Shown: piece after piece, positions 21,269 to 24,533 of the stretch
Layout of the letters: every line of letters begins with the position of its first letter
Position numbering within the stretch: the stretch's first letter is position 1
Origin: Actinomycetes bacterium
GTDB lineage: Bacteria; Actinomycetota; Acidimicrobiia; Acidimicrobiales; Palsa-688
Assembly (NCBI GenBank): GCA_021787365.1
Contig: JAJYMB010000027.1
Coordinates: forward strand, 30,833-94,832
Direction: 5' to 3'
DNA: 64,000 bases
Notes under the pieces: model-generated
Database searches by the model: none
Told to the model about the DNA's origin: nothing
The model's input: the letters and a program-made list of their open reading frames with translations, nothing else
Position numbers and translations under genes: made by a program

Positions 21269-22264
21269 ATGAACGAAGCCACGAAGGACCTGGGCGGCGG
21301 GCAGCGGATGGTCATAGAGTCTGGCGTGCTGCCCTGGCCGGCCGTTGCCGTGCACGGTGGCGCTGGGACCTTCAAGGTGCTCCGGGAGGGCGGGGCACAA
21401 GCGAGGGCCGCGCTCGAGGCCGCGTTGGAGGTGGCGCTCCGCTCCGGCTGGGCAGTGCTGTCGGCTGGGGGAGCGGCGCTGGAGGCTGCCGTCGAGGCGG
21501 TCGCGGCGATGGAGGACAGCGGCCTCTTCAACGCCGGCCGAGGGTCAGTGCCGACTACGGCGGGAGCGGTCGAGACAGACGCCGGCGTCATGGACGGCGC
21601 GACCGGGAGGGCCGGGGGGGTGTGCGCTTTGACGTGGCCGGCCAACCCGGTCCGAGCCGCGCTCGCAGTGGCTCGGCTCACCGGTGACCCCGTCCCCATC
21701 CTTTTGGCCGGTGCCGGCGGGGATGAACTGGCCAAGGCGGAAGGGCTTGCCGGCATGCTCGTGGACGCCAGAGGAGCCGAGGCGTCGGCGGCGGGTACCG
21801 GGGCGTCGGCGGCGGGTACCGGGGGTGGTACCGGGGGTGGAGAGGTCGCCGGCGGTCGCATTTCGGGTAGCGGCACCGTCGGCGCGGTGGCTATCGACGC
21901 CGCGGGGCACCTGGCCGCCGCCACCTCAACCGGAGGGCTGGCGGGGCAGAGGCCGGGCCGGGTGGGGGACAGCGCCATTCCCGGCGCCGGTACCTGGGCT
22001 GACGACACGACGGCCGCCGTCTCGGCCACGGGGACAGGAGAGGCGATCTTGCTCGCCGGCCTCGCCCATCTGGTTGACCGTTCGCTGCGTGAAGGTGCCG
22101 GCCTTGACGCCGCGGTCGAGGCGGCGCTCGATGCGGTCCTCCAGCGCGGGGGCACCGGCGGCGCCATCGCGCTCTCGCCCCGCAGCGAAGTGGCCTTCGC
22201 TTTCTCGACGCCGGCGATGGCCCGGGGCTGGCGATCCGGCGACCGCCTCTCGGTGAAGATCTGA
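21269..22264 (+). CDS. Isoaspartyl peptidase / L-asparaginase (Ntn-hydrolase)
   Basis: VAVHGGAGTF N-term; autocleavage motif GTVGAVAIDAAGHLAAATSTGG. Confidence 0.9.
   Translation: MNEATKDLGGGQRMVIESGVLPWPAVAVHGGAGTFKVLREGGAQARAALEAALEVALRSGWAVLSAGGAALEAAVEAVAAMEDSGLFNAGRGSVPTTAGAVETDAGVMDGATGRAGGVCALTWPANPVRAALAVARLTGDPVPILLAGAGGDELAKAEGLAGMLVDARGAEASAAGTGASAAGTGGGTGGGEVAGGRISGSGTVGAVAIDAAGHLAAATSTGGLAGQRPGRVGDSAIPGAGTWADDTTAAVSATGTGEAILLAGLAHLVDRSLREGAGLDAAVEAALDAVLQRGGTGGAIALSPRSEVAFAFSTPAMARGWRSGDRLSVKI
21781..21840 (+). repeat. In-frame tandem repeat (21-bp x2 plus 12-bp unit) in the isoaspartyl peptidase linker
   Basis: GGCGTCGGCGGCGGGTACCGG repeated at a 21-nt interval; encodes GASAAGTGASAAGTGGGTGGG. 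Confidence 0.85.
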
Positions 22265-22320: not shown

Positions 22321-22339
22321 TTACGTCACAGTGACGTAA
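22321..22339. repeat. 19-bp palindrome TTACGTCAC-A-GTGACGTAA upstream of vapBC
   Basis: 9-bp perfect arms, 1-bp centre; related copy at 23226-23240. Confidence 0.8.
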
Positions 22340-22479
22340 TTGGGCGAGGCCCGCAGGGCGGGGGACGACGAGCCCCGGTGGCCGCCGGGCGCCGCAGCCG
22401 AGGCTGACAGGACGGCAGGTCGGTACTCTCGGGCCACGAAGATATATATGAACTGGTCCGAGTATATACTTTTGGAGTC

Positions 22480-22674
22480 ATGTCGAAACACTTGGTGGAC
22501 ATCGACGAGGAGGCGCTGGCGGCGGCCCAAGTCGAACTGGGAGCCGCCAGCATGAAAGACACCGTCAATGAAGCCCTGAGGCGGGCCGGCGCCGGCAGGA
22601 AAGCCAAGGTTCGCGAGGCGCTGGACCGTCTCGGGCGGCGACGCCTGGCCCCTCGCGAACAAGCGTGGCGCTAA
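22480..22674 (+). CDS. vapB: VapB-like antitoxin
   Basis: 64 aa, MSKHLVDIDEEALAAAQVELGAASMKDTVNEALRRA pattern; overlaps downstream PIN gene. Confidence 0.85.
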   Translation: MSKHLVDIDEEALAAAQVELGAASMKDTVNEALRRAGAGRKAKVREALDRLGRRRLAPREQAWR

Positions 22675-23078
22675 CCCACCTCGTCGATACGAGCGTGATC
22701 AGCCGCCTGGGCGAACCGGCTGTGCGCGCTATCGTCGAGCCTCTGACGGCGGCCGGTCACGTAGGCCGATCTGGGATCACCGACCTCGAGGTTGGCCACG
22801 GGAGCCGCAACGCCCGGGAGTGGGACCAGGACATGGCCGACCTATCGGTGTTCAAGCTGGTCGAGACCACCGCCGAGCACGTCCGGCGCGCCCGACAGGT
22901 CCAGCGGCTTCTGGCTTCACGCGGTCAACGGGGCCGCAAAATCCCCGACCTGCTGATTGCCGCTGCCGCGGAGCAGGACCGGCTCGTCTTACTTCACTAT
23001 GACTCGGACTTCGACCTGATCGCCAAGGTCACGGGCCAGCGGTGCGAGTGGGTGGTGCCCGCAGGGACCATTGATTGA
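22665..23078 (+). CDS. vapC: VapC-like PIN-domain toxin
   Basis: 137 aa; LVDTSVISRL, GITDLEVGHG, IPDLLIAAAAEQ, LLHYDSDFDLIA: PIN acidic residues. Confidence 0.9.
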   Translation: MALTHLVDTSVISRLGEPAVRAIVEPLTAAGHVGRSGITDLEVGHGSRNAREWDQDMADLSVFKLVETTAEHVRRARQVQRLLASRGQRGRKIPDLLIAAAAEQDRLVLLHYDSDFDLIAKVTGQRCEWVVPAGTID

Positions 23079-23122
23079 GCACGGCCTGAAGTCGACCGCC
23101 ACCGGTCAGGGCCGTCCGTGCT

Positions 23123-23167
23123 CTGCCCCTAACGCCCATAAGGGCCGTTATGTAAAGTTAGAGGCAG
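23123..23167. other. Stem-loop region downstream of vapC
   Basis: CTGCCCCTAAC / GTTAGAGGCAG arms (one mismatch), with alternative inner TAACGCCC-ATAA-GGGCCGTTA hairpin. Confidence 0.5.
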
Positions 23168-23225
23168 GGGTGCCGGGAGGCCGGTCTGCCCGCAGCGAGG
23201 AGCCCGTGTTGTGTGCTTATGCTGA

Positions 23226-23240
23226 TTACGTCACTGTGAC
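23226..23240. repeat. Second TTACGTCACTGTGAC copy, downstream of vapBC
   Basis: 15 bp identical to the reverse complement of the 22321-22339 palindrome. Confidence 0.8.
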
Positions 23241-23290
23241 AAAATAGCGACCTTAGCCGAGCCGAGTGTGCACCCTAGGATGCCTTTGGC

Positions 23291-23452
23291 ATGCGGAGAG
23301 GTCGTTGGTACAAGTGGACGGGCGTGGTGCTCTGGGCCGCCCACGTCGTCATGGCCAGGTTGGGCGTGTACCGCTGCCCTCGCTGCAAGGGAAAGCTCAA
23401 CTACCGTTGGTGGTGCAAGCAATGCGCGAGGTACCGGTTACCGAAGCGCTGA
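23291..23452 (+). CDS. Small (53 aa) zinc-ribbon protein, not in the supplied ORF track
   Basis: ATG...TGA translates to MRRGRWYKWTGVVLWAAHVVMARLGVYRCPRCKGKLNYRWWCKQCARYRLPKR with two CxxC knuckles; no obvious Shine-Dalgarno. Confidence 0.45.
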   Translation: MRRGRWYKWTGVVLWAAHVVMARLGVYRCPRCKGKLNYRWWCKQCARYRLPKR

Positions 23453-23462
23453 GCCCTGCCGC

Positions 23463-24533
23463 CTAGCCGTCGGCATGGAGGCGCCGGAGCAACTCGGACT
23501 TTATCGCCGGCCGGCTCCCGAACACGAGCAACACGCTCGCTTCGCGGGTCGAACGCTCAGCGACGTCGCCGGCCAGGGCAGCCCTGCTACCGCGGCTGAC
23601 AGCCACGGCATGGGCGGCTCGCACCGCTAGTTCGCAGGCAGCGGCCCGCGCCGCGGGCATGTCCTCGGCGCTCGCGGTGTCGAGCTGTTCCCGGCGGGCG
23701 AGGAGCTCCGAGTCGAGCTGAGAAGGGCCGAGTAGCCGGCAGCAACGTTCGGCCACGCCCAAAGCAAACGAACCGTTGAGCCGCAGGCCCTCCGATGCCT
23801 GACGCGCCTCCTCGTACGGACGGACGCCCAGCACCTGCTCGGCACCCATGGCGACACCGTCGAAGCGCAGGCTCACGGTGCTGGTGGCGTTGAGGGCGGA
23901 GAGCCGGGCCGGCGCCACGGAGAGCCCGGGGTGCTCGCGGGCTTCCATGTCAAATTCCACCGTCGTACTGTCCGGCCCCCGTGCTACCACGAACAACCTG
24001 TCGACGATCCCCCAACCGCTCACCCACGGGGCCTCGCCGCGCAGGCGCCAGCCATGGCCCTCGGGTTGAGCGGCCAGCCGCACCGGCCCCGGCATGAGCC
24101 CGGTCAGCACTACCCCACCCTTGCGGCGGCCCGATATGACCTCATCACGCACTTGTTCCCGCCAGGGCGCTGGGGTTTCTCGGCTGAGGACGGCGCCGAG
24201 GAGGCGGAGGTGCTGCGCCCAGAGGAACGTGCTCGCCACGCACCCCGCAGCCAGTTCCTCGACGACCGCACAGACCTGGCCGTAGCCGAGGCCGAGGCCG
24301 CCTTCGTCTGCTGGAGCACAAACGCCGTACAGGCCGGCCTCTGCCAGGGCGTTCAGGTGCGAAGCCGGCACCACCTGGGCGGCATCCACGGCGCCGGCTT
24401 CGCGCCAGAAGCGCTCCGAGAGCTCTCTTATCCTGGCCAGGGGGGCCGGGGGCAGGCTGGAAAGGGCGGGGGCGTCGAGGTCCGGCCGTACCGCCAGCGC
24501 CCCGACAGTGGGGGCGAGTGCTCCCTCGGGCAT
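23463..24533 (-). CDS. Acyl-CoA dehydrogenase family protein
   Basis: 356 aa; LNALAEAGLYGVCAPADEGGLGLGYGQVCAVVEELA; FVVARGPDSTTVEFDMEAREHPGL. Confidence 0.85.
   Translation of the reverse strand: MPEGALAPTVGALAVRPDLDAPALSSLPPAPLARIRELSERFWREAGAVDAAQVVPASHLNALAEAGLYGVCAPADEGGLGLGYGQVCAVVEELAAGCVASTFLWAQHLRLLGAVLSRETPAPWREQVRDEVISGRRKGGVVLTGLMPGPVRLAAQPEGHGWRLRGEAPWVSGWGIVDRLFVVARGPDSTTVEFDMEAREHPGLSVAPARLSALNATSTVSLRFDGVAMGAEQVLGVRPYEEARQASEGLRLNGSFALGVAERCCRLLGPSQLDSELLARREQLDTASAEDMPAARAAACELAVRAAHAVAVSRGSRAALAGDVAERSTREASVLLVFGSRPAIKSELLRRLHADG

Follow-up and report, generated by a model that had tools for sequence, protein, structure and literature searches.

We examined a window of 64,000 nucleotides, the whole stretch of DNA analyzed, from an actinomycete of the order Acidimicrobiales, and within it a small toxin-antitoxin locus. 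On the left lies an Asparaginase_2 (isoaspartyl peptidase) gene (21269-22264, + strand), followed by the antitoxin gene vapB (22480-22674, +), recognized by a weak match to Pfam PF09957 that falls below the cut-off, and by the PIN-domain toxin gene vapC (22665-23078, +; PF01850, E=2e-13; NF047959 below cut-off). To the right an acyl-CoA dehydrogenase-like gene (23463-24533, - strand) is preceded by a small gene (23291-23452, +) whose 53-aa product (MRRGRWYKWTG...) carries two CxxC motifs, gave no match in a Pfam search and is conserved beside dif in the same family. The toxin-antitoxin pair is enclosed by two copies of a palindrome, just as the original prediction had claimed. The left copy, TTACGTCACAGTGACGTAA (22321-22339, no strand), is a perfect 19-bp palindrome of the form TTACGTCAC-A-GTGACGTAA, is conserved beside dif in relatives, and stands 140 bp before the vapB start (22480). 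The right copy (23226-23244, no strand) reads TTACGTCAC-T-GTGACaaaA, with one arm decayed, and includes a 15-bp match, TTACGTCACTGTGAC (23226-23240), 147 bp beyond the vapC stop (23078). Both spacings agree with the roughly 140 and 150 bp first described, and the enclosed genes do encode a weakly matched VapB and a PIN toxin. The two copies form a 20-bp repeat, 85% identical. When up to three mismatches are allowed the window holds five palindrome matches against 1.1 expected, a count reached in none of 100 shuffles. The only exact copies in the whole 4.56-Mb genome are the two in the window. One further genomic match with a single mismatch is at chance level (the reversed control also gives one), and the gap-tolerant pattern WTWCGTCAN{0,5}TGACGWAW has its sole match in the genome at 22321-22339.

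The palindromes also bracket an element that the original prediction did not contain. The dif site is the 28-bp sequence at which XerC and XerD resolve chromosome dimers, and AACGCCCATAAGGGCCGTTATGTAAAGT (23131-23158, +), located between vapC and the right palindrome with the XerC arm to the left and the XerD arm to the right, is the dif site of this chromosome. A 6-bp centre lies between two inverted arms, each about 11 bp long, and the whole matches the phylum consensus; the sequence is single-copy in its own genome and aligns both with the corresponding sequences of seven relatives and with the dif reported for Frankia (F. alni; PMC3025954). Of 198 genomes in the class, 105 contain a corresponding pattern, nearly always once; in the Mycobacterium/Corynebacterium-type family, 113 genomes out of 121 have the actinobacterial version, a single time each. 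The position is marked by a strand switch as well. Architecture-imparting octamers have been used for locating dif in Corynebacterium aurimucosum (PMC2830990); counted in a shortened form (GGGGGAG/TGGGGGA), these polar motifs are distributed over the two strands as 18:0 to the left of dif and 5:26 to its right (Fisher P=2.9e-9), with the best switch point at 22.0-24.0 kb. GC skew is broadly consistent with dif at this place, forming a plateau with its maximum at 36 kb, and the flanking genes converge on the site, ABC-transporter and asparaginase genes (+) from the left and acyl-CoA genes (-) from the right. A search of the genome for XerC/XerD gave as best match an XerD-type protein (329.2 bits vs a cut-off of 329.6), and several further tyrosine recombinases are encoded. 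In sequence, copy number and position the element is like other actinobacterial chromosomal dif sites. An Xer-integrated element (IMEX) or pdif module does not fit, as there is one dif-like site only, not two flanking a cargo. The site falls inside what had been described as a structured 3' element: the sequence is real and its content is dif, but the fold is not unusually stable (z = -1.6), and with no Rfam match either, we reject a reading as RNA family or terminator. As a separate observation, one genome (G559, L315-L320) carries, besides one ordinary dif, 11 dispersed dif-like copies (GCCGCCCATAAGTGCCGTTATGTGCGGC and similar), which have the look of a repeat family of hairpins that mimic dif.

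How far the palindrome accompanies dif was assessed in two ways. A scan for the exact 19-mer TTACGTCACNGTGACGTAA across 84,980 species returned 39 loci, nearly all from actinobacteria; at the majority of them a dif-like site stood less than 1 kb away, at distances of about 50 to 950 bp. So that the palindrome itself played no part in the choice, we also assembled an unbiased sample of 110 loci picked by dif alone, which spans 28 genera but draws on related genomes, so that its counts are not fully independent. Of the 110 loci, 72 have an exact CGTCAC-N0-2-GTGACG no farther than 600 bp from dif on the XerC side, and 94 have one if a single mismatch is tolerated. Within 1 kb, 87 exact sites lie on the XerC side and 0 on the XerD side, where base composition alone predicts 0.08, and 12 permuted half-site controls gave no exact occurrence at the same loci. 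Sites lie at a median of -328 bp, with quartiles of -381 and -292; this one-sided placement, about 330 bp to the XerC side, is that of the Mycobacterium/Corynebacterium-type family. Outward of the palindrome there is a symmetric A/T preference over about four positions; the half-site TGACGWAA is constant and the spacing differs by clade, some clades having one base less or one base more between the half-sites at an unchanged position. Unsupervised k-mer counting in other families of the same class recovered ATTTCGTCATGACGAAAT-like palindromes at -264 to -656 bp. Phylum-wide, the exact pattern ACGTCACNGTGACGT yields mostly scattered matches without AT flanks or dif, which indicates that the AT flanks and the spacing variants matter. 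Any one gene family is found at 10 of these loci at most, so the palindrome follows dif and not a gene. The association has exceptions: no palindrome was found near dif in family f22 nor in several other samples of the phylum, family f32 has it on the XerD side only, and the window itself, with its left copy at about -815 bp from the dif centre (XerC-arm side) and its right copy at about +88 bp (XerD side), departs by the latter from the rule of the larger sample. Overall, we put at about 70% the probability of our main reading, in which the palindrome is a conserved companion of chromosomal dif in many, though not all, Actinomycetota, bound by a putative dimeric protein, and vapBC has inserted beside it; the companion element itself is brought out by the computations. 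None of the dif descriptions found includes such an element, nor did the open-access literature that we searched mention the motif or any palindrome linked to dif in actinobacteria; an earlier description is possible. By the tests made it belongs to no known family, although what it does could turn out to be a variation on something known.

The palindrome is also met away from dif. A second location is the neighbourhood of parB, where 14 or more genomes from several genera have a copy just past the 3' end of the gene or in the parA-parB interval. Part of the Mycobacterium/Corynebacterium-type family has the parB copy alone and none at dif. Per genome there are one to three palindromes clustered within about 1 kb of dif, and another may stand beside parB. 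Matches on plasmids and phages are few, weak by E-value, and suggestive. On a Nocardia plasmid the palindrome lies about 185 bp from a dif-like site, on the XerC side, and Mycolicibacterium plasmids (M. crocinum and M. chubuense) likewise carry it near dif-like sites. In Corynebacterium sp. CNJ-954 a dif-like site and the palindrome stand 312 bp apart on a 4.4-kb contig, possibly a plasmid; the assembly also has a chromosomal dif-palindrome pair. In Mycobacterium phage Jeeves the palindrome is near replication genes and parA/parB-like genes. For several of the plasmid and phage copies a dif-like site could not be recognized, and seven exact matches in viral contigs, mostly in coding sequence, are uninformative except for that of Weasels2. 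Rhodococcus phages Weasels2 and Grayson and Corynebacterium phage P1201 carry palindromes in long non-coding or divergent-promoter regions. On M. chubuense plasmid pMYCCH.02 (2570-3023) the end of a PIN-domain gene coincides with a palindrome copy, about 415 bp from a dif-like core, TATAATCGTCATTATCCATGAAA. In genome G019 (L037, near 1503 and 1899) the palindrome and a perfectly symmetric Xer-like site, GAGTTACGGATAACTGTGATTATCCGTAACTC, are about 400 bp apart and may belong to a plasmid or integrated element.

What the palindrome does we infer from this arrangement. Because its half-sites are constant, its spacing is variable and its placement is at the level of the replicon (dif, parB, plasmid Xer-like sites), it is most likely the binding site of a putative dimeric protein that would work with XerCD/FtsK or in chromosome segregation. 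Such a sequence-specific protein would bind the palindrome and act with XerCD/FtsK at dif, for example by controlling dimer resolution or by holding or marking the terminus, and through the copy at parB it could operate on the origin side as well. The original prediction had considered operator sites for an external regulator; sites for an external protein are still the likeliest general idea, but they would be tied to dif rather than to vapBC. In its widest form, the palindrome and its putative reader would make up a second sequence-defined layer of the terminus in actinobacteria, matching the parAB copy near the origin, with plasmids and phages using the signal for their own maintenance, a proposal for which we see even odds.

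More specific roles are each tentative. The palindrome may be an accessory site for Xer recombination, at which a host protein, some 330 bp from the XerC arm, would shape or license the XerCD-dif synapse, much as ArgR and PepA do at cer/psi, whose accessory sequences are likewise protein sites on the XerC side of an Xer site. The strict XerC-side placement in the 110-locus sample (87:0, the window having one copy on the XerD side) favours accessory Xer control, and so do the copies beside dif-like sites on the Nocardia, M. crocinum and M. chubuense plasmids and on the 4.4-kb Corynebacterium contig. Unlike the cer/psi sequences, however, the palindrome serves a chromosomal dif, lies farther off, differs in sequence and recurs at parB without any dif-like site; its distance is variable (about 50 to 950 bp), and chromosomal dif is normally under the control of FtsK alone. 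To the same limited degree we can envisage a mark that organizes segregation or the terminus in the manner of matS/MatP, where a putative protein would bridge or anchor the terminus, and also the region of the origin by way of the copy at parB. The parB copy favours this terminus/origin organization, as dif and parB copies occur in the same lineages, and the copy near the parA/parB-like genes of phage Jeeves fits as well. In Escherichia coli, matS (GTGAC-RNY-GTCAC) is bound by MatP at many sites over hundreds of kb of the terminus macrodomain. The palindrome resembles it in being palindromic and terminus-specific and in its GTGAC/GTCAC parts, yet the half-sites come in reverse order, and the one to three sites per genome cluster within about 1 kb of dif, with another beside parB. 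Identity with matS is rejected on both counts, as the GTGACRNYGTCAC motif is absent and there is no broad domain of many sites. The palindrome shares with the ParB site parS an inverted repeat and a TCAC/GTGA core, one variant even having a CACGTG centre; but the outer bases are CGTCAC and not TTTCAC, the spacing is variable and the location is at dif, so that it does not appear to be parS (TGTTTCACGTGAAACA).

We regard it as unlikely that the palindrome is a conventional operator, bound by a transcription factor with targets that are near dif and parB by coincidence. An 18-19 bp palindrome is typical of dimeric regulators, and some phage copies sit in probable divergent promoters; however, no conserved gene adjoins dif, which makes an ordinary operator less likely, the side and distance relative to dif stay constant while the genes change, and a genome has just one or two copies. 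An operator at promoters genome-wide, which had been raised at the outset, does not fit the two copies in this genome. Binding by XerD itself is very improbable. In Bacillus subtilis, XerD-unloading sites are extra sites near dif, and like them the palindrome is close to dif and could be a target of XerD, its half-site ATTACGTCA resembling the XerD arm ATTATGTCA at 8 of 9 bases. Yet the half-sites are oriented opposite to the dif arms, and they do not track a diverged XerD arm: in several Corynebacterium genomes the arm is ATTATGACA and the palindrome still CGTCAC, an arm change that is not mirrored and on which we reject an XerD-bound site.

The vapBC genes are most simply explained as an insertion between the left palindrome and dif, a bystander, because relatives lack them, homologues elsewhere are confined to the operon, and their removal restores an ordinary spacing. 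In two same-genus relatives (G001 and G002) dif and the palindromes are present at this locus and vapBC is absent. In G001, a fragmented assembly, 61% complete, in which a single contig spans the dif locus, the asparaginase gene is missing as well as vapBC, and dif and the right palindrome, in a fuller version (TTACGTCACTGTGACGAAA), are kept; in G002 other DNA lies between the asparaginase gene and the palindromes. Homologues of vapBC at other loci share 81%, 78% and 74% DNA identity, with homology stopping at the vapBC block and neither palindrome nor dif beside it; the palindrome is absent from 11 homologue-bearing loci, which does not fit a vapBC operator. The block measures 643 bp, and without it some 170 bp would separate the left palindrome from dif, in line with the -213, -243 and -246 bp of relatives. 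An insertion here would create the illusion that the palindromes bracket vapBC. The original proposal that they are the ends or target sites of a compact mobile vapBC cassette is hardly tenable: although vapBC is missing here in same-genus relatives and two palindromes of the M. crocinum plasmid enclose a toxin-antitoxin pair, the repeat neither travels with the cargo elsewhere nor is missing from the empty, vapBC-free sites, where the breakpoints do not fall at the motif, since G001 lacks both the asparaginase gene and vapBC yet keeps dif and the right palindrome. On that plasmid (NZ_CP092363, 3001-3861) the pair is of RelE/ParE-Phd type and a symmetric dif-like site, GGATAATCTACATTATCC, follows about 70 bp past the second palindrome, a second example of toxin-antitoxin genes adjoining the palindrome element. 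A toxin-antitoxin pair bracketed by repeats may, as a caution, be a mere bystander.

The dif site is among the best-studied sites of bacterial chromosomes, and a conserved, one-sided partner seems to have escaped notice in the very phylum to which Mycobacterium, Corynebacterium and Nocardia belong. The palindrome offers a ready bait for the putative binding protein, and through it the organization of the terminus in actinobacteria becomes directly testable in model species that are not pathogenic. If our reading of the palindrome as a protein-bound companion of dif is true, it would represent a new kind of control element for chromosome segregation or dimer resolution.
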